A program made the translations under genes and the position numbers. This document shows positions 1-14,532 of a DNA stretch of 35,663 nucleotides, piece after piece (the first letter of the stretch is position 1; every line of letters starts with the position of its first letter). The notes beneath the pieces were generated by a model. The model had not been told where the DNA came from. It was given only the letters and a program-made list of their open reading frames with translations, and ran no database searches. Origin of the DNA: Acidobacteriota bacterium (GTDB taxonomy: Bacteria; Acidobacteriota; Terriglobia; Terriglobales; Acidobacteriaceae); contig JAKAAZ010000002.1 in assembly GCA_021802085.1 (NCBI GenBank), positions 1-35,663 of the forward strand. The letters run 5' to 3'.

Positions 1-43
1 CATTGGAATTTTTCCGGATAATTTTGTTGAGCTAGTTAAAATA

Positions 44-190
44 AGAGGAGTCATTCGGAGTCCTTCGACTTCGCTCAGGATAAACTCCGCGAAGAATCCA
101 GAGGGCGATGGCGGCGTGTACGATGCGGACATCGTCTGGATTCTTCACTTCGATCACCGCCGCGACCTCCGTTCAGAATGACTCTACAAA
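44..190. repeat. Composite nested inverted-repeat (REP/MITE-like) intergenic element
   Basis: Outer arms GAGTCATTC (48-56) / GAATGACTC (176-184). Inner arms GAAGAATCCAGA-ggg-CGATG (91-110) / CATCG-TCTGGATTCTTC (130-146). A further left hairpin has GGAGT (57-61) / ACTCC. All read directly from the sequence. Confidence 0.75.
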
Positions 191-250
191 CTGTAAATCG
201 GCTATAAAAGCCGGCAACCAGACGGTCTCATTCGCCGGCATGAACGTCCC

Positions 251-850
251 TCATATCTCTCTGCGTCCTTCCATGGCGCGTGTCATCGTCACTTCATCCG
301 CATACTCGATATCCGCTCCAGCAGGAATGCCGGTTGCGATTCTAGTGATGCGAATCGGCATCGCGCGAAGCAACTGAAGCAGGTATCCGGCCGTGGCTTC
401 GCCTTCCACAGTGGGGTTGGTCGCCAGGATCACCTCCTGCAATGCGCCGTTCCGCGCGCGCTCAAGCAGGCTATCGATGCGGAGCTGCTCCGGACCAATT
501 CCATTCAACGGCGAAAGCGTTCCATGCAGGACGTGGTAGGCGCCGTTGAAATGCTTAGTCCTTTCAATACTGGCGATATTCGATGCCTCCTCGACGACGC
601 AGATGATGGACTGGTTGCGCGAGGGACTGCTGCAGAACTGGCACGGATCGACATCCGTAATGTTGTGGCAGATGGAGCAGAGATGAAGCTGCGCTTTCAG
701 GTCGCGAATGGCATCGGCAAGCGCGAAGGCATCCTGTTCTGTCGCGCGCAAAATGTGAAAAGAAAGGCGCTGGGCGGACTTTCTGCCGATTCCGGGCAGC
801 TTCGACAGTTCTTCAATCAACTGGTCCAGCGGTTGGGCAAAACGCGACAC
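251..850 (-). CDS. recR: Recombination protein RecR
   Basis: Full-length RecR-like protein: LSKLPGIGRKSAQRLSFHIL, four-Cys zinc motif CSICHN..DPCQFC, Toprim-type EVILATNPTVEGEATA. Confidence 0.96.
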   Translation of the reverse strand: MSRFAQPLDQLIEELSKLPGIGRKSAQRLSFHILRATEQDAFALADAIRDLKAQLHLCSICHNITDVDPCQFCSSPSRNQSIICVVEEASNIASIERTKHFNGAYHVLHGTLSPLNGIGPEQLRIDSLLERARNGALQEVILATNPTVEGEATAGYLLQLLRAMPIRITRIATGIPAGADIEYADEVTMTRAMEGRREI

Positions 851-919
851 TGTATTTCCTCAAAAATATGTTGTGAGATGCGGTCGAAGGATGCCGATGC
901 GAGCACAGATTCCGGGCAA

Positions 920-1258
920 TCAATGGCCGAGCATGCGGAGCCACTCCGTGCCACCGAGCATCCCGGACAGCTTTCCCTGTAGCGCTTCATCAACCCGGCG
1001 GGATGCGTCATTCACAGCCGCGGCAATCAGATCCTGTAACATTTCGAGGTCCGCTGTGCTGTCTCCCGGGCCGGTGCCGACGGCGGCCGCGGATGGGTCG
1101 ACATGCACCTGCAGCACCTGTTTTTTCCCATTCATCCGCACCGTAATGGCACCGCCGCCAGCCGAGCCTTCCACCTGGATCTGCGCCATCGACAGCTCCA
1201 TCTGCTGCTGCATCTGCTGCGCTTGTCCCATCATTTCCTTAATTTTGTCCATGTCCAT
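920..1258 (-). CDS. YbaB/EbfC family nucleoid-associated protein
   Basis: MDMDKIKEMMGQAQQMQQQM..., size and position between dnaX and recR. Confidence 0.93.
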   Translation of the reverse strand: MDMDKIKEMMGQAQQMQQQMELSMAQIQVEGSAGGGAITVRMNGKKQVLQVHVDPSAAAVGTGPGDSTADLEMLQDLIAAAVNDASRRVDEALQGKLSGMLGGTEWLRMLGH

Positions 1259-1274
1259 CGGGAGCCCTTTCCAC

Positions 1275-3356
1275 TTAAGATTTCGATGATTGTGGATCGC
1301 GCAAAGAGACGACGCTGCGGATCTCGGCGGAGAAAAGCTGCTGCGCGTGGCGTACCAGCGGATGGTCCTGGGGGCGGGCGCTGCCTTCCACTGTCGCGAC
1401 CGGCGCTGGTTTCCCCCGCGGCTTTCCTCCGTTCGTTGCGGACGAATCGTCCGGTTCTACCCGCACGGTGTGGCCGGGGCCTGCGATTTGCCGGAAGGAG
1501 TCACGCACGATCTGCTGCGCTTGCGTCGTGTACATCAGATCAATGAGCGTCTTCGATGCTCCTACACGGATGCGCAGTTCATTTCCATTCCATTCCCAGG
1601 TTCCCGCTTCGAGCAGGTAGCCCGCGGTTTCGTGGCCCGCCTGGATCATGGCCTGGCTAATCGCAGCGCGGAACGATTCCGTATCCATCGCGGGCGCGGT
1701 CCGCGAGTTTGCGGGTGGCGGGGAAGAAGATGGAATGTCGGTGGATGGACGCGCGTCTTCTGCTTCGGGCAGCTCAGGTTCCGGGGTGAGCAGAGCGATG
1801 GCTTGAGCGATCGACGGGGTGGCAGAATCAGCGATGGGCGTTTCCGCATACTTTGCGGGATGGGGTTCCGACCGCACCGGTGGGTTCGACAGGGGCTGGA
1901 TTTTCGGCGTTGCCGGCATCGTTGCCGGCCTAGAGGCCGCGGCAACCGGGGAACCCGACCCACTTCCGAACATACCCTGTAGAGGATGCGCCTCCGCGGT
2001 GACAGGCGATGCTGTTTCGTTGAGCATCGGAACCGGTTGCTTGAATTCCTCGCGGACGGATTGCCGCGTCGGCCGCGTCGCGGTCGCAATAGGGACTGAG
2101 GAGCGTGGTGCTGAAGACTCCAGTTGTTTCGGTGGATTGCCCGCGCCCGCCAGTCGCGGAGTTGTTGTACTGGAGCTTCCCGGCGCGCGCGAGGGAAGAG
2201 AAAGCTGGCGAAACAGGTCCTCCAGCGGCAGCAGGCGTTGCATGTGGACCAGCTTCAGCAAACCGAGTTCAAGATGGAAACGCTGCTCCTGGCGGTAGCC
2301 GAGATCGTCGAAGGTGCGCAGCATGGAATTGAGAAAGCGCGTCAGGTCCTCTTCGGAGAAGGCGGCAGCGATGCGTCCGGCGCGCGCGCTCTCTTCGTCG
2401 GAAACCTGGAGCAGTTCAGAGCCGGTTCCAGCGAGCCGGGCCATCAGGCAGTTGCGCAAAAAGCGGACCATCTGGCGAGCGATCTGTTGTGGGTTGTTTC
2501 CAGCGTCGAGCAATTGCGCGGCCTGCTCCAACATGGAGGCGGCGTTCGATTCCCTGACTGCTTCCATCATGTTCTCAAAAACCTGATTGGAAACCGTGCC
2601 CATCAGGGAGCGAATCTGCGCGGCTTCCAGCGTATGCGCGCCATTGACCAGCGGAGCGCTGGCAATCGCCTGGTCCATGATGGATAAGGCGTCGCGCATG
2701 GAGCCATCGCCGGCCTCGGCGAGCAGCGAGTACGCCGCTTCATCGACGGCAACGGATTCTTGTTCCGCGATGCCGCGCAACTGGGCGACGATCTCTTGAA
2801 AGCGCACCGCATGGAAGCTGAAATGCTGGCTGCGCGAGCGGATAGTTTGCGGAATGTCTTCCGGCTGCGTGGTCGCCATCATGAAAATGACGTGCGCCGG
2901 GGGTTCTTCCAGCGTTTTCAGCAGCGCATTGAAGGCGGCATCGGTGATCTGGTGGGCTTCGTCGAGGATGTAGATCTTGTAGCGATCGCGGGCGGGGCTG
3001 TAGCGGGCCCCTTCCCGCAGTTCGCGAATTTCATCGATGCCGCGATTGGTGGCGGCGTCGATCTCGATGACATCCATCGCATTGCCGGCGCGAATCTCGG
3101 TGCATGCGTCGCAAATTCCGCATGGCTCCGGCGTGGGGCGTTGGGGCGTGCCCTGCGGTGTGCGGCATTGCAGCGCCATGGCTAGAATCCGCGCGATGGT
3201 CGTCTTCCCGATGCCGCGATGCCCGCTGAAGATGTAGCCGTGCGCAATCCTGTCCTGCGCCAGCGCGTTCAGCAGCGTCTGCGTGACGTGGTCTTGTCCG
3301 ATCACGTCCGCGAAGCGCTGAGGGCGATATTTGCGCGCTAAAACCTGATAAGCCAT
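1275..3356 (-). CDS. dnaX: DNA polymerase III subunit gamma/tau
   Basis: MAYQVLARKYRPQRFADVIGQDHVTQTL, Walker A GHRGIGKTTIARI, Cys4 zinc module, DEAHQITDAAFNALLKTLEEPP. Start moved from 3425 to the MAYQ codon at 3356 by family convention. Confidence 0.96.
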   Translation of the reverse strand: MAYQVLARKYRPQRFADVIGQDHVTQTLLNALAQDRIAHGYIFSGHRGIGKTTIARILAMALQCRTPQGTPQRPTPEPCGICDACTEIRAGNAMDVIEIDAATNRGIDEIRELREGARYSPARDRYKIYILDEAHQITDAAFNALLKTLEEPPAHVIFMMATTQPEDIPQTIRSRSQHFSFHAVRFQEIVAQLRGIAEQESVAVDEAAYSLLAEAGDGSMRDALSIMDQAIASAPLVNGAHTLEAAQIRSLMGTVSNQVFENMMEAVRESNAASMLEQAAQLLDAGNNPQQIARQMVRFLRNCLMARLAGTGSELLQVSDEESARAGRIAAAFSEEDLTRFLNSMLRTFDDLGYRQEQRFHLELGLLKLVHMQRLLPLEDLFRQLSLPSRAPGSSSTTTPRLAGAGNPPKQLESSAPRSSVPIATATRPTRQSVREEFKQPVPMLNETASPVTAEAHPLQGMFGSGSGSPVAAASRPATMPATPKIQPLSNPPVRSEPHPAKYAETPIADSATPSIAQAIALLTPEPELPEAEDARPSTDIPSSSPPPANSRTAPAMDTESFRAAISQAMIQAGHETAGYLLEAGTWEWNGNELRIRVGASKTLIDLMYTTQAQQIVRDSFRQIAGPGHTVRVEPDDSSATNGGKPRGKPAPVATVEGSARPQDHPLVRHAQQLFSAEIRSVVSLRDPQSSKS

Positions 3357-3525
3357 AGGGTCGTATGAAGGAACGTTGGTTATGCGTGGGGTCCGTGACC
3401 AGCCCTTTGATTGTATCGCTTGCACGGCTGTGCAGGGTTCGTGTCGGTGCGGTCCGCGAGGGGGCTTTCTTCGCTGTCATCGCGCTGGAATAGCGGTCGT
3501 TTCCGGTCATCGATCGCGGCTGATA

Positions 3526-4161
3526 TCAGTGGGCTTTTTGAGATTTCTTTACTTTGCCGTGGGACTCTCCGTGCCCGCTGACACGCAAAGTCCGTTTCTT
3601 GTTACTTTCCTTACCTGCGGTTTTCGCGGTCTTTGTTGCATCCGGCGGTGTGCGTTTGGGTGACGCCGGCTTCTTTTTCGCTGCGGGTTTCTCTGTCCTG
3701 GTTTTTACCGGCGGGTGTCGGCGCAGTTCTTTTTCCGCCAGCCGTTTTCGGCGTCGCAGCTCTTCGCGGGAATACATTGAGCCGCGGCATTTCTTCGCTC
3801 CACAATTGCACGGAGCCTCTTCGTCTCCGCCGTCGTAGAGGCAGTAATCGTAGCAAAGCTCCTCGCCCGCGGCGATGTCGCGGATGGCCATGATCCACAC
3901 GCGGCCGTCGATCTCCTCCGTCTCGCAATTCGCGTCGCAGGAATGGTTGATGAACATCGCCGTCCCGTGACCGTCGATGACCCTGGAACCGTCGCCGATG
4001 CCGAATAGATAGGTAACCGGTTTATTCTCATAGCGAAGATCGGCTTCTTCCTTGTCGATCAGGGGGCCGGTGTATTCGACGACGCGCGTACCTTTAGCAA
4101 TGGGCGTGGTGGTATAGCAACCGGCGGCGTGAATGGCGGAGGAGCGAATGATGAGACCCAT
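3526..4161 (-). CDS. SET-domain protein (putative protein-lysine methyltransferase) with basic Lys/Pro/Ala-rich C-terminal tail
   Basis: SET hallmarks: GCYTTTPIAKGTRVVEYTG, AMFINHSCDANCE, IAAGEELCYDYCLYD, post-SET-like CNCGAKKCRGSMY. Tail: KTRTEKPAAKKKPASPKRTPPDATKTAKTAGKESNKKR. Start placed at MGLIIRSS (4161); the ORF extension to 4848 is antisense to the next gene. Confidence 0.87.
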   Translation of the reverse strand: MGLIIRSSAIHAAGCYTTTPIAKGTRVVEYTGPLIDKEEADLRYENKPVTYLFGIGDGSRVIDGHGTAMFINHSCDANCETEEIDGRVWIMAIRDIAAGEELCYDYCLYDGGDEEAPCNCGAKKCRGSMYSREELRRRKRLAEKELRRHPPVKTRTEKPAAKKKPASPKRTPPDATKTAKTAGKESNKKRTLRVSGHGESHGKVKKSQKAH

Positions 4162-4276
4162 GGGATATTGGAAGCAGAACAATGGAGTATAGCAGTCGGG
4201 GAACCGAGAAAATTGTCCCGGCATGGCAATGAATTCGTCTACCCAAATGGACGGAAAACCGTCCAGAATAGTAGGT

Positions 4277-5164
4277 ATGGTGTTTTCTAGAAGGACCGCC
4301 CGCATTTTGTACGTGTTGGTTGGACCGCTCCTGCTTTTGGGCGCCGCGTGCATGCTGGGCCAGCAAAGCAACCAGAATGCTCCGTCCAACGCGGCGACTG
4401 CCAACGGACAGAGCAAGACCGGCCAGCAATCATCTAGCCAGGCGCAAGGTCCCGGCAGCAAAGGGTCGACTCCTGCGCCAGCACAGAACGACCAGTCCAC
4501 GGGCAATTCGTTTCCCATGGCACAGTCGGAGGCAGCGGCGAAGGCGAATGCGCAAAAGAACGCGCAGCCGACACCGAGCGATTCTTCCGCTGCTTCCTCA
4601 GGCTCGAACTCCGATACGTCGAAGGCTGCGAGCGGCGATGGAAAATCGAGCCAGAAACATGATAGCCCGGCGGCGCAGGCCAATCCTTTTCCTGAAGCAC
4701 AATCAAAGGCGGCCGCGAAGGGCGACCAGGGGGGTGCAACGGGTGGCTCGGGAAATTCGCAAGCAGGTTCGTCTTCTCCCTCCGGCGGATACAGTTCCAG
4801 CGACGCGCATCTGCCAGCGCCCGATGTGGGCCAGGGAAATCTTGGCACCCATGAAAAGTTGGATTCCTTTACCCGGGATCAGACGCAGGATGGACGCGTC
4901 CTGGACGACCTGAATGTCGCCGATCTTTACATGAAAAACGGGAATTATCGCGGCGGGTATATGCGCTACGAGGACGCGCTCCAGTACGATCCGCAAAACG
5001 ATACAGCGCTCTACGGCATTGCGGAGGCGCTGTGCAAGGAGAATGTAACCAGCGAAGCCATGGCCCACTTCAAGAGTTATGCGACGAACAATCCGCAGGG
5101 AAAATACGCCAGAGATGCCGAAAAGATGCTGGCGCACCCGGAAAAATGCGAGCACAACCGCTGA
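4277..5164 (+). CDS. Secreted TPR-like protein with Ser/Gln/Ala-rich linker
   Basis: N-terminal hydrophobic segment ILYVLVGPLLLLGAACML, low-complexity linker, C-terminal TPR-like helices (LNVADLYMKNGNYRGGYMRYEDALQYDPQNDTALYGIAEALCKE). Start could also be 4223. Confidence 0.72.
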   Translation: MVFSRRTARILYVLVGPLLLLGAACMLGQQSNQNAPSNAATANGQSKTGQQSSSQAQGPGSKGSTPAPAQNDQSTGNSFPMAQSEAAAKANAQKNAQPTPSDSSAASSGSNSDTSKAASGDGKSSQKHDSPAAQANPFPEAQSKAAAKGDQGGATGGSGNSQAGSSSPSGGYSSSDAHLPAPDVGQGNLGTHEKLDSFTRDQTQDGRVLDDLNVADLYMKNGNYRGGYMRYEDALQYDPQNDTALYGIAEALCKENVTSEAMAHFKSYATNNPQGKYARDAEKMLAHPEKCEHNR

Positions 5165-5165
5165 G

Positions 5166-6047
5166 TCAGCGATAGAACGACAGATACCATGCGATCGCCG
5201 GCTTGCCGGCGAAGATGGCCAGGATGCCTGCGCCGGCAAGAAAGCTGCCAAAGGGAATGCGATCGGAGCCGCGGGCTTTGTGCCGCGCCAGCAACACGAC
5301 GGCGAACAGCGCGGCTGACAATACTCCCACAAAGTAGGCGAACAGGGCGAGCGGCAATCCCATGAATGCCGCCATCATCGCCAGCAGCTTGACATCGCCC
5401 AGGCCGAGGCCCTCCCTGCGGCGCACGATGCGGTAAAGCGCCCAGACAAGCAGCAGCATGGCTGCCGCAATGGCGGCGTCTTCCAGCGTTCGGATGGCAA
5501 CGCGCGCATGGAATCGAATTCCCGGAGCAAAAACTTTCAGCAGGAAAGCGACTGCGATGCCGGTTACGGTGAACGTGTCCGGCAGCAGCATCGTCTGCCA
5601 ATCCATGACAGCCAGCCCAAGCAAGAGAAAGCAGGCGACGGCATCGACCAGCGTTTGCCACACTGGACCAGTATGCAGGACGCAGGCCATGAACAAGGCA
5701 GCCGTGGCCAGCTCCACCAGCGGATATTGAATGGAAATCCGCGCATGGCAAGCGCGGCAACGGCCATGCAGCCATAGCCAACTGAGGACCGGAATATTGT
5801 CGCGCGCACGGATGGGCGCGCCACAGCGTGGGCAATGGGAGCTCGGCGTAACAATCGACTGATGCGCAGGCAGACGGGCAATGCAGACATTGAGAAAACT
5901 GCCGAACATCAGACCCCCCAGCAGAGCGGCGGTCACGACGACCCAGACGGGAATGAAAGCGACAAAAGGCACGCAGCCGCAGTATACGCAGGGGACGAGT
6001 AATCTACAGCATCCGATGGGCCGGTCTAATCGTAAGATGTGGAGCAT
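5166..6047 (-). CDS. Type IV prepilin peptidase / A24 aspartic peptidase (PilD-like)
   Basis: CPRCGAPIRARDNIPVLSWLWLHGRCRACH zinc motif, MDWQTMLLPD and GLGLGDVKLLAMMAAFMG catalytic motifs. Start uncertain: ATG at 6047 overlaps the divergent mazG start; a GTG at 5972 is also possible. Confidence 0.9.
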   Translation of the reverse strand: MLHILRLDRPIGCCRLLVPCVYCGCVPFVAFIPVWVVVTAALLGGLMFGSFLNVCIARLPAHQSIVTPSSHCPRCGAPIRARDNIPVLSWLWLHGRCRACHARISIQYPLVELATAALFMACVLHTGPVWQTLVDAVACFLLLGLAVMDWQTMLLPDTFTVTGIAVAFLLKVFAPGIRFHARVAIRTLEDAAIAAAMLLLVWALYRIVRRREGLGLGDVKLLAMMAAFMGLPLALFAYFVGVLSAALFAVVLLARHKARGSDRIPFGSFLAGAGILAIFAGKPAIAWYLSFYR

Positions 6048-6930
6048 GACGCAAACTTCGCATCGATCCAACAGACGGTCAATACCTCCGTCCTCGCAGA
6101 CCGAACAAGACTCGCTACAGCAGGCGTTCACGCGCGCGATAGAGATCATGGCTCGCTTGCGCGGACCAGGCGGGTGCCCGTGGGACCGCGAGCAGACATT
6201 CGATTCCATCCGCAGATATACCCTCGAAGAGACCTATGAGGTTCTCGATGCCATCGAACATAAGGACTGGCCGGGACTGAAGGATGAACTTGGCGACTTG
6301 TTCCTGCAGGTGCTGTTCTACGCGGAAATGGCGCGGGAAGCAGGGTATTTCACGCTGCAGGATGTGATGGACAGCCTCAGCGAAAAACTGATTCGCAGAC
6401 ATCCGCACGTATTCGCCAACAGAGAGGGAGTGGAGACCTCCGCGCAGGTGGTTGCAAATTGGGAAGAGATCAAGAAATCGGAGCGCGCGGAATCAGTCAA
6501 CCCGAAAGAGACATCATTGCTCGACGCTGTGCCGCGCGCGCTGCCGGCGTTGATGGAGGCCGGCAAACTGGGGAGCAAGGCGGCAACGATTGGCTTCGAT
6601 TGGGAAAGCGCCGAGCCAGTTTTTGACAAGCTTCAGGAGGAGTTGAACGAATTGCGGGAGGCGATGGCGAAGGGGCACCGCGACCAGCAGGAGGAGGAAC
6701 TGGGAGACGTTCTGTTTACGGTCGTCAACCTGGCCCGCAAGCTGGGAGTGCAATCCGAATTTGCGCTGCGTGGATCGAATGCGAAATTTCGGCGCAGGTT
6801 CGCGGCCATGGAGCGATCCGACACAATGGCCGCGCCGCTGGCCCAACTCGCTCCCGAGGCATTGGAGGAACTCTGGAATGGCGTCAAAGCTCGTGAAGGA
6901 AAGGACCCAGCCGGTGAGCAACCCCGTTGA
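6037..6930 (+). CDS. mazG: Nucleoside triphosphate pyrophosphohydrolase MazG
   Basis: LRGPGGCPWDREQTFDSIRRYTLEETYEVLDAIEHKDWPGLKDELGDLFLQVLFYAEMA plus a second EExxD-type module EEELGDVLFTVVNLAR. Confidence 0.95.
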   Translation: MWSMTQTSHRSNRRSIPPSSQTEQDSLQQAFTRAIEIMARLRGPGGCPWDREQTFDSIRRYTLEETYEVLDAIEHKDWPGLKDELGDLFLQVLFYAEMAREAGYFTLQDVMDSLSEKLIRRHPHVFANREGVETSAQVVANWEEIKKSERAESVNPKETSLLDAVPRALPALMEAGKLGSKAATIGFDWESAEPVFDKLQEELNELREAMAKGHRDQQEEELGDVLFTVVNLARKLGVQSEFALRGSNAKFRRRFAAMERSDTMAAPLAQLAPEALEELWNGVKAREGKDPAGEQPR

Positions 6931-7696
6931 CAAGATGATCGAAATCAGAAAAATGATTTCCATTCCAGATTTGGAAGCCTGTGTTGCTCTGCAACAGTCG
7001 GTATGGCAATTCGCCGATCTCGATGTGATCCCACGCAGAATCTTCGTAGTGGCGGGCGCCATTGGCGGTCAGGTATTCGGTGCATGGGACGGAACGAGAC
7101 TTGTGGGTTATGTTGTGGCCGTACCAGGTGTGCGCGATGGATTCTCGTACCTGCATTCGCACATGCTGGCCGTGTCGCCGGAATATCGAAATCATGGCAT
7201 CGGCAAAATGTTAAAAATTGCGCAAAGGGACGATGCGATGGCGAGGGGAATCAATTTGATCGAGTGGACATTCGATCCGATGGAAACAAAAAATGCATAT
7301 TTCAATATTGAACGGCTGGGCGCGGTGGTTCGACGATATACGCCTGATTTTTATGGCCTCTCCACCTCTCCATTGCATGGCGCACTCCCCACCGATCGAC
7401 TGCACGCGGAATGGTGGTTGAAATCAGAGCGAGTGGTGGCATTGATGACTGGGCAGGATATGCCGGAATGCAGCATAGAGGAAACTATTACTGTTACATA
7501 TGAGACTGAGCAGACGAGTGATACACTCCAGCCTCCCTCCGTATTGGCGTTAGAATTGCTGTTGAAAGTACGGCGGCAATTTCTTGCAGCCTTTTCTGGT
7601 GGTTTTACTGTTTTACGGTTTCAAAGATTGTCCGGCGACTCCGCTTGCTATCGGCTTGGGCGCTGGGATGAATCCAGCGCGATCGTTCGCGGCTAG
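6914..7696 (+). CDS. GNAT-family acyltransferase (COG3375-like)
   Basis: LHSHMLAVSPEYRNHGIGKMLKIAQRDDAMARGINLIEWTFDPMETKNAYFNIERLGAVVRRY. Start at GTG 6914 or ATG 6935; overlaps the mazG end. Confidence 0.8.
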   Translation: MSNPVDKMIEIRKMISIPDLEACVALQQSVWQFADLDVIPRRIFVVAGAIGGQVFGAWDGTRLVGYVVAVPGVRDGFSYLHSHMLAVSPEYRNHGIGKMLKIAQRDDAMARGINLIEWTFDPMETKNAYFNIERLGAVVRRYTPDFYGLSTSPLHGALPTDRLHAEWWLKSERVVALMTGQDMPECSIEETITVTYETEQTSDTLQPPSVLALELLLKVRRQFLAAFSGGFTVLRFQRLSGDSACYRLGRWDESSAIVRG

Positions 7697-7762
7697 CCGG
7701 ATGCCGGATCGTATCGAAGTTTGCGACCGCTGCGATTGGATTCAGCTTTCGGGAGAGTGTTT

Positions 7763-8920
7763 GTGAAGATAGACAGCGTGGTTCTGCGGGAAATTCGCAT
7801 GCCTCTGGTGCAGCCGTTTGAAACCAGTTTTGGGCGCACCACCGAGAGACGCATTCTACTGGTGGAGGTGCAGAGCGATGGCGTCACCGGCTGGGGGGAA
7901 TGCACGGCGGGGGAGCATCCCAGCTTCAGCGGGGAGTGCACAGATACAGCCTGGCTGATGCTTGCCGATGAACTGATCCCGGCATTGCTCCACGCGGAGA
8001 TTGACTCCTCTGGCATGTGTCCGAAGGCGTTGAGCCATGTGCGCGGGAACCGGATGGCGAAGGCCGCGCTGGAAAATGCTGTCTGGGATGCGGAAAGCCA
8101 GCAACTCGGAATTCCACTGTGGGAACTGCTGGGCGGGTTGCGAAAAAAGATCCCTTGCGGGGTTTCCTTAGGCATTCAACCATCGATCGAAAAGCTTTTG
8201 GAACTGGTCGAAAGGGAACTGGCCTCGGGTTACCAACGTATCAAGCTGAAATGTAAACCCGGCATCGATGTTCAGTTGTTTGAAGCTGTGCGCAAGCGCT
8301 GGCCGAACATTTCGTTGAGTTGCGACGCGAATGGCTCGTACAGGTTGAAAGATCAGGAACTCCTGCGTTCCTTCGACGCGTTCGGCATGCTGATGATCGA
8401 GCAGCCGCTATGGCACAACGACTTTTATTTTCATGCCCTGCTGCAGCGCCAATTGGAGACTCCCATTTGCCTCGATGAGTCCATTCGCAATCGGCGCGAT
8501 GCGCTGGCGGCGATTGAAATGGAGTCTTGTCGAATCGTGAATATCAAGCTGGGCCGCGTGGGCGGATTCAGCGAAGCGATCCGCGTACACAATGTGACGG
8601 CAGAACGCGGCGTGCCTGCATGGTGCGGGGGAATGCTGGAGACAGGTATTGGCCGAGCGCATAACATTGCGCTCTCGTCGCTGGAGAACTTTACCTTGCC
8701 GGGCGATGTTTCAGCCTCCGCGCGCTACTGGGAGGAAGACATTATCGAGCCTGCGGTGGAGGTTTCGCGGAATGGCGAAATCGAGGTCCCGCAAATTGCA
8801 GGTCGAGGATTTGAAGTGAAGCGGGATCGCGTCGAGCGACTGACCGTTCGCCGCGAACGTTTTCATGCAAGGAACAAGGCCCATGGCGAGGCAACTGGGT
8901 CGATCAAGGCCCGCGCATAA
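7763..8920 (+). CDS. Enolase-superfamily o-succinylbenzoate synthase / N-acylamino acid racemase
   Basis: MLE-subgroup motifs: IKLKCKPG (KxK), SCDANGSY, MLMIEQPL, ICLDESI, IVNIKLGRVGG, MLETGIGRAHNIAL. Likely GTG start. Confidence 0.9.
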   Translation: MKIDSVVLREIRMPLVQPFETSFGRTTERRILLVEVQSDGVTGWGECTAGEHPSFSGECTDTAWLMLADELIPALLHAEIDSSGMCPKALSHVRGNRMAKAALENAVWDAESQQLGIPLWELLGGLRKKIPCGVSLGIQPSIEKLLELVERELASGYQRIKLKCKPGIDVQLFEAVRKRWPNISLSCDANGSYRLKDQELLRSFDAFGMLMIEQPLWHNDFYFHALLQRQLETPICLDESIRNRRDALAAIEMESCRIVNIKLGRVGGFSEAIRVHNVTAERGVPAWCGGMLETGIGRAHNIALSSLENFTLPGDVSASARYWEEDIIEPAVEVSRNGEIEVPQIAGRGFEVKRDRVERLTVRRERFHARNKAHGEATGSIKARA

Positions 8921-8951
8921 TCCGAAATTCGTCTGGATCGTGGATGGCCGG

Positions 8952-9977
8952 TTACGGGTGCGGCAATTCTATTTGTGCCGTAGGCGTCGTGGCGGGCATT
9001 TGTAAGAGCCAGTCGACCGCATCGGTAAATTTCCAGTTCTTAGGCACGGAGTGGTAGTCGGTAGCGGTTTCATCCACTACGATGTTCAATGGCTTCAGTA
9101 TGAGCGCTCTGCCCACCAGGTTCAAATTGAGATGCGCTAACTGCCAGCCGCACTCTGGCGTCCGTGTCTGCTCGATGCTGATTGTTCCTCCTGGGTAGAG
9201 AGTTCCCAGGATTCCCCAGCCATAATCCACAGTCCGGAAAAGGCGGCCTTCGATCTGAACCACGCGCAAATCCGTGGGATCGATCCATATTTCCCCTCGA
9301 ATTCCGGTCAAAATGCGAGATTCCAAAGTAGGCGGGGAAAAGTGAGGATTTGGGGTAAAGGTCAGCCGTATTGCAGGGCCGTTCGGCGTTTCGACCGATC
9401 CCGCAAACTGGTTGAGAAACGCGTCTGGAAGAACACGCATGATGCCGGCGAGTTGAGCCGCATCTTTCCGTTCGCTTCGGTTGCGGTGCTGCTGCGCCGC
9501 CGGATCGGAAGCGAGTTCGCGCAATCGTTCTATCTCCGCTTGTGTCTGCGCGGCGGACAAGGGCTGGTTGCGGATGGCGACCAGGCGAGCCACCCCCCCG
9601 TCGCTGGTTTCCACGATTTCTTTGGTCGTGTCGAGATTCCTGGTTTTCTTTCGGAACAGGTATCGGACTGGCGGGCGATGGCCGTAGGAATTGTTGAATT
9701 CATTTTCCACCGCTGCCCGCACCAGCGCGTGCGGATCGGATTGCGCCAGACTCCACGCGGAAGTGGGCGTGGCCTTCGCCGAGGAATCGGATGAGGCCCT
9801 TGCAGATGGAAGGAAAGACAGCGCCAACACGAAGAAAAGCGCCCAGGGGAGACGGCGCGAGGGCAGAGGGGGCAGGATGTGCTGGAATCCGCAGCCGCGC
9901 AGCTTGAGACGAAGGAACCGCAGCCTGGCAACGGGTATTGGGCCGGCTTTACTGCAATCGCCAATCCTCAAGCGCAA
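8952..9977 (-). CDS. Hypothetical secreted protein
   Basis: Long ORF with an internal signal-peptide-like segment (LPWALFFVLALSFLPSARASS) and a plausible outer-membrane/periplasmic beta-rich C-terminus. True start may be downstream of 9977. Confidence 0.65.
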   Translation of the reverse strand: MRLRIGDCSKAGPIPVARLRFLRLKLRGCGFQHILPPLPSRRLPWALFFVLALSFLPSARASSDSSAKATPTSAWSLAQSDPHALVRAAVENEFNNSYGHRPPVRYLFRKKTRNLDTTKEIVETSDGGVARLVAIRNQPLSAAQTQAEIERLRELASDPAAQQHRNRSERKDAAQLAGIMRVLPDAFLNQFAGSVETPNGPAIRLTFTPNPHFSPPTLESRILTGIRGEIWIDPTDLRVVQIEGRLFRTVDYGWGILGTLYPGGTISIEQTRTPECGWQLAHLNLNLVGRALILKPLNIVVDETATDYHSVPKNWKFTDAVDWLLQMPATTPTAQIELPHP

Positions 9978-14238: not shown

Positions 14239-14532
14239 TTATTTCGTTCCTTGCTGCTTCCTGCGCTCTGCCCAGCGTTTCCGCATCGCATCGGCAATTC
14301 GTTTGCGTCCCTCAGGAGATAGGCGGCGCTTCCGTTTTGCGGATTTCTTGGGTGCAGCCACGGCAGCCACGTGAGTTACCGTTGCAGCCTTGGGACGCCC
14401 CGGGCCTCGCGTCGTTGGTTTTCCTGTCAATAGCGCACGAGCTTGTTGCAGTCGTGAAATCTCTGAATCAATTTCATGTACGAGTCTATTAAAATCCACA
14501 ATCCCTCCAATGTTCGATCCAATCTTGATCAA
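14239..14532 (-). CDS. Small basic AT-hook/histone-H1-like protein
   Basis: 97 aa; N-terminal helix VHEIDSEISRLQQARALLTG, AT-hook-like TTRGPGRPK, basic C-terminus KKSAKRKRRLSPEGRKRIADAMRKRWAERRKQQ. Confidence 0.75.
   Translation of the reverse strand: MIKIGSNIGGIVDFNRLVHEIDSEISRLQQARALLTGKPTTRGPGRPKAATVTHVAAVAAPKKSAKRKRRLSPEGRKRIADAMRKRWAERRKQQGTK

Follow-up and report, generated by a model that had tools for sequence, protein, structure and literature searches.

The SET-domain methyltransferases of the KMT2/MLL type, such as human MLL1 and yeast Set1, combine a SET core with a post-SET zinc site. The bacterial SET enzymes that have been studied are mostly host-directed effectors, among them BtSET from the Burkholderiales, a T3SS effector that methylates H3K4 (PMC3980110, PMC7819608). 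Chlamydial SET proteins have been reported to act on different targets: C. pneumoniae cpnSET methylated the histone-like protein Hc1, whereas C. trachomatis NUE methylates host histones, automethylates and did not methylate Hc1 (PMC3980110), so that the statement in the original prediction that chlamydial NUE methylates histone-like proteins applies to the C. pneumoniae protein and not to the C. trachomatis one. In archaea, Go1-SET methylates MC1-alpha, a small chromosomal protein (PMC3980110). BurB, a stand-alone bacterial SET protein, is a methionine S-methyltransferase (PMC12542666). How protein modifications affect bacterial DNA processes is a named open question (PMC10117894).

We analyzed a stretch of 35,663 nucleotides (contig JAKAAZ010000002.1, hereafter the window) from a soil bacterium of the Acidobacteriaceae, which encodes a SET protein of 211 aa. 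This protein shares the SET core and the post-SET zinc site with the KMT2/MLL type, including a PCNCGAKKCR stretch identical to that of MLL1, but it stands alone, without other chromatin domains. The chlamydial proteins cpnSET and NUE are comparable by description, as bacterial SET proteins with basic stretches; however, they come from intracellular pathogens, and Hc1 was not detected in the genome of our bacterium (86% complete). Go1-SET, likewise prokaryotic, differs in being archaeal, and BurB in its methionine substrate. The small SET proteins of the Burkholderiales (Paraburkholderia, Caballeronia, Trinickia) form a sister clade, with 43-47% identity among the matches listed and short basic tails, but these tails are shorter than the one described here and the gene neighbourhood is different. 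Within its family the protein is nothing unusual; it adds an annotated example to a kind that is already known. The features of the locus are as follows.

251..850, minus strand: recR (ORF; order conserved)
920..1258, minus strand: gene for a YbaB-type nucleoid-associated protein (ORF; order conserved)
1275..3353, minus strand: dnaX, clamp-loader subunit, downstream neighbour of the SET gene (ORF; linkage in relatives)
3526..4161, minus strand: SET-domain methyltransferase gene, ATG start at 4161, stop codon at 3528-3526 (ORF list, Pfam)
3529..3738, minus strand: lysine-rich low-complexity tail, residues 142-211 (composition, dN/dS, pLDDT; low confidence, disordered, beyond about residue 160)
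3718..3768, minus strand: predicted basic helix, residues 132-148, EELRRRKRLAEKELRRH (AlphaFold2; the last well-predicted element, partly conserved)
3787..3810, minus strand: post-SET zinc motif C118-x-C120-x4-C125, with C75 of NHSC as partner (invariant in 67 homologues; aligned with MLL1 PCNCGAKKCR)
3844..4122, minus strand: SET domain, residues 14-106 (Pfam PF00856; columns invariant or nearly so in 67 homologues)
within 3844..4122, minus strand: SET-domain residues E29-Y30-x-G32, F53, N72-H73-x-C75, Y104 and Y106
4223..5164, plus strand: TPR-protein gene, divergent and head-to-head with the SET gene (Pfam TPR_19, 5e-7; likely start at 4277)
14239..14532, minus strand: basic protein of 97 aa, TTG start

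The SET gene and its catalytic core

The start of the SET gene is shared by its orthologues in a 27-sequence alignment (A1), and the ORF is open in ten members of the genus; a plus-strand reading of 3526-4161 was ruled out, as stops interrupt the frame. The SET core (residues 1 to about 130) with a lysine-rich tail of about 70 residues, as well as the motifs INHSCDANCE, EELCYDY and CNCGAKKCRG, are present as originally described. Pfam SET (PF00856) is the sole Pfam domain of the protein, with an E-value of 9.8e-21 and 74.6 bits against a cut-off of 22.4, and the NHxC, EYxG and catalytic-tyrosine signatures accompany the SET fold, placing the protein among the SET-domain methyltransferases. In NCBIfam the protein matched LegAS4 alone, far below threshold (23 bits against 550), and the Pfam SET model found no second SET gene in the genome (about 86% complete).

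To place the active site, we compared the protein with human MLL1 and with 67 homologues spanning five phyla (Acidobacteriota, Pseudomonadota, Verrucomicrobiota, Gemmatimonadota and Nitrospirota). S8, G14, Y30, G32, D63, N72, H73, C75, N78, E101 and Y106 are invariant in these homologues, as are C118, C120 and C125, which with C75 make up a complete post-SET signature (CxCx4C plus the Cys of NHxC); Y104 and F53 are nearly so. Counterparts of Y30, F53, N72, H73, C75, Y104, Y106, C118, C120 and C125 are found in MLL1, and a loss of catalytic SET residues, which had been named as grounds for dropping the original prediction, was not seen at any position checked. We take Y30 to be the EYxG tyrosine, F53 the lysine-channel phenylalanine, N72-H73-C75 the SAM-binding NHxC, Y104 the F/Y switch, Y106 the catalytic tyrosine and C118/C120/C125 the post-SET cysteines.

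The top PDB sequence match of the protein was the MLL1 SET domain (4e-21), and a profile of the family matched yeast Set1 and the MLLs best (3e-38). In agreement with this, AlphaFold2 predicted an MLL-like core with pLDDT mostly of 84-98, for which Foldseek ranked MLL1 SET first (E 4.6e-12, 39% identity), so that both the structure prediction and the Pfam search that had been proposed as checks bear out the SET assignment. The core is under purifying selection, with pairwise dN/dS of 0.01-0.07 between genus members. Given that the SAM-site, channel, catalytic and zinc positions are kept, that the core is constrained to this degree and that the model matches MLL1 SET, the protein is very probably an active methyltransferase. 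The tyrosine, not phenylalanine, at position 104 would predict mono- or dimethylation.

The lysine-rich tail

The 70 aa from residue 142 on include 16 K, 6 R and 6 D/E, and K/R/P/A/S/T make up 70% of them. AlphaFold2 confidence is high for residues 121-150 (pLDDT about 93-95) and drops to about 46-62 from residue 161 on, which predicts disorder. Pairwise dN/dS in the tail is 0.3-0.8 among ten genus members, indicating that it is translated and weakly constrained in sequence. In these ten, the tail measures 32-93 residues with 29-44% K+R; outside the genus it ranges from none to about 60 residues, mostly as short basic ends. Over all relatives the span is 0-95 residues, and the sequence varies too. 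One orthologue (L017) ends at residue 135, without a tail, and several others end at 140-150, suggesting that the tail is dispensable for the basic function of the family. No tail lysine is conserved by position, which speaks against a single specific automethylation site.

What persists is charge. The last 25 residues carry a mean net charge of +7.1 in 80 homologues, compared with +0.9 in 644 neighbouring ORFs, and 80% of the homologues lie above the 95th percentile of that background; by group, two separate Acidobacteriaceae-type sets averaged +7.8 and +6.5, and the Burkholderiales +7.5. By these comparisons, the basic tail is a trait of this clade and its Burkholderiales sister, preserved as charge and not as sequence, and its occurrence in two phyla suggests a shared targeting principle. 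The original prediction had likened the tail to those of H1 and Hc1 and had proposed to check its conservation, a tail neither conserved nor binding nucleic acid being taken to speak against it. The likeness holds for composition but does not extend to a match with a linker-histone or Hc1 model, as the Pfam search of the protein returned SET alone; likewise, the sequence of the tail is not conserved, but its basicity and predicted disorder persist.

The Burkholderiales proteins (L124-L137, L140, L142-L145) end in lysine-rich tails, such as SKKAKKK, that differ in length from short to medium. Another class of SET proteins, in other Acidobacteriota families (L150, L152-L154, L156, L157, L160-L163, L167, L169, L172), stops four residues past a CxCxxxC-type post-SET motif and has no tail.

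Descent and gene neighbourhood

SET proteins had been called sporadic outside eukaryotes, a description that does not fit this lineage: the Pfam SET model detected the gene in 27/31 sampled genomes of the family and 91/297 of the phylum, and SET genes had already been noted in more than 500 bacterial genomes in a 2014 review (PMC3980110). A protein search gave matches in 36 of 61 relatives overall, with orthologues in the bacterium itself and in each of the nine further genus members, and a scan of named genomes yielded at least 583 confirmed relatives; those listed include Edaphobacter, Granulicella, Bryocella, Paraburkholderia, Gemmatimonadota and Verrucomicrobiota. Some Acidobacteriota genomes carry up to four SET genes. 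In a core tree, built from few columns by a quick method, all 50 Acidobacteriaceae-type sequences form one clade (SH-aLRT 99), the genus likewise forms one clade (SH-aLRT 98) and the Burkholderiales join as sister (SH-aLRT 87). Moreover, SET identity tracks RecR identity (Spearman rho 0.85, n=14). Together, the clade and this correlation indicate that the gene, which is single-copy, was inherited vertically within the family rather than acquired recently from a eukaryote.

The SET gene ends 172 bp before the dnaX ATG (3353), on the same strand, and is followed by ybaB and recR, confirming the arrangement from which a link to the nucleoid had been proposed. The nine other genus members all have dnaX on the same strand, at a distance of 120-340 bp from where the SET match ends. 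Of 18 relatives outside the genus, 8 show the link, 8 lack it within at least 4 kb and in 2 the contig ends too soon; in a wider set, dnaX lies downstream on the same strand within 3.9 kb in 30 of 55 named Acidobacteriaceae-type loci, and in 0 of 25 loci from other phyla. The neighbourhood is therefore conserved in the genus and in about half of the wider family, but is absent from the other phyla: an association that is old within one lineage, yet loose. Since about half of the Acidobacteriaceae-type loci and all 25 from other phyla lack it, a nucleoid role does not follow from this position, and the proposed link is not supported by it. In most bacteria ybaB adjoins dnaX, and its proximity to the SET gene here is explained by its travelling with dnaX.

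On the other side, the divergent SET-TPR pair is kept across the genus and in many family members, about as often as the dnaX link; the TPR protein has a hydrophobic N-terminal segment and a long low-complexity region rich in S/A/Q/G. Apart from genes specific to single lineages, the neighbours that recur around SET genes are the dnaX-ybaB-recR block and the divergent TPR gene together with the genes next to it; across phyla, no linked gene points to a substrate. A promoter and terminator scan of the SET-dnaX interval gave no minus-strand site and counts no better than those of shuffled sequences, and an RNA feature upstream of dnaX, such as SRP RNA, was rejected, as Rfam had no credible match in 1-9000. 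One record titled Verrucomicrobia bacterium Tous-C9LFEB (L102) carries an Acidobacteriaceae-type SET-dnaX-ybaB-recR locus and is probably mislabelled or contaminated.

Probable activity and candidate substrates

On balance, we lean slightly towards a cytosolic housekeeping SET plus post-SET protein-lysine methyltransferase that is active, is held near nucleic acid or basic targets by its tail, and may be automethylated. In this model, the core would bind SAM, its lysine channel would be closed off by the post-SET loop with its bound zinc, and it would transfer one or two methyl groups to protein lysine; being acidic (net charge -5), it would suit basic, lysine-rich targets. The disordered tail would most likely attach the enzyme to DNA, RNA or ribosomes by non-specific electrostatic contacts, bringing the core near such targets, and could plausibly itself be methylated in cis.

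A narrower version, in which the enzyme is a dedicated nucleoid modifier that methylates HU, YbaB or the 97-aa AT-hook-like protein while its tail holds DNA, so that regulation at a chromatin-like level would be linked to the dnaX-ybaB-recR locus, appears unlikely to us. The same-strand dnaX link throughout the genus (10/10 genomes) and in the 30 Acidobacteriaceae-type loci is consistent with it, as are the three HU genes of the genome, the genus-wide 97-aa protein and the precedents of Go1-SET on MC1-alpha and cpnSET on Hc1 (PMC3980110). However, the remaining loci and those of other phyla have the same enzyme core without the link, the distance to dnaX varies from 14 to 3900 bp, which is hard to reconcile with an obligatory operon, and the nearness of ybaB comes with dnaX. 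Furthermore, the three HU proteins carry no lysine-rich tail, and an HU with such a tail was rejected as partner. The enzyme was also not found together with bacterial histones: the histone fold (PF00808) was absent from 41 genomes and Hc1 (PF07432) from 21, the bacterium's own (86% complete) included in both and with working controls; a linker-histone search (PF00538) gave no match, but neither did its control, and it is uninformative. A nucleoid role is possible, but its support does not extend past the loose gene linkage. Bacterial ribosomal proteins are commonly methylated on lysine, by non-SET enzymes, and the substrate might instead be a protein of the ribosome or of translation, or some other lysine-rich protein of high abundance, with the tail bound to rRNA and not DNA. 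The tail, a generic polycation without a DNA-specific motif, would allow this, but the flanks examined revealed no linkage to or co-conservation with ribosomal genes, and we consider such a substrate improbable.

As BurB illustrates, a free amino acid can be the substrate of a bacterial SET protein (PMC12542666), and a similar small-molecule activity would be conceivable here. Yet the BurB structures (9L4T, 9L4V) are missing from the best 60 PDB matches, whether the query was the protein, the family profile or a Burkholderiales sister, suggesting that the clade is not close to BurB, and all of the best 60 listed are protein-lysine methyltransferases. In addition, the post-SET zinc motif and the catalytic tyrosine are invariant in the family, whereas BurB Y124F retains more than 60% activity (PMC12542666); we therefore regard a small-molecule substrate as very unlikely. 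Least probable, to a degree that we would give it little credence, is a secreted effector whose target would be a eukaryotic host, be it amoeba, fungus or plant, and whose tail would be a nuclear-localisation signal. Lysine-rich stretches can be such signals, and several studied bacterial SET proteins are injected (NUE, RomA/LegAS4, BtSET; PMC3980110, PMC7819608), but this gene is single-copy, vertically inherited, near-universal in a mostly free-living soil family and adjoined by housekeeping genes. The protein also begins directly with the SET fold, its first predicted strand lying at residue 3 with no extension ahead of it, which would leave no space for a signal at the N terminus.

What SET enzymes do for bacteria themselves could be studied cleanly in this free-living and partly cultivable family (Edaphobacter, Granulicella, Bryocella), where the SET gene is single-copy and near-universal. 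It is a doubtful but specific proposal that conserved, vertically inherited SET enzymes of free-living bacteria, in the Acidobacteriaceae and separately in the Burkholderiales, methylate proteins of the cell's own nucleoid or proteins that bind its nucleic acids, and are held there by a fast-evolving tail that is itself methylated; if true, bacteria would have an equivalent of histone methylation that is not directed at a host. One candidate substrate or partner, and a candidate only, is the 97-aa protein at 14239-14532, which is kept in 10/10 genomes of the genus, with paralogues in some, and could be a nucleoid-type protein: it has a coiled-coil-looking N-terminal region, an AT-hook-like RGPGRPK and KRKRRLSPEGRKRIADAMRKRWAERRK.
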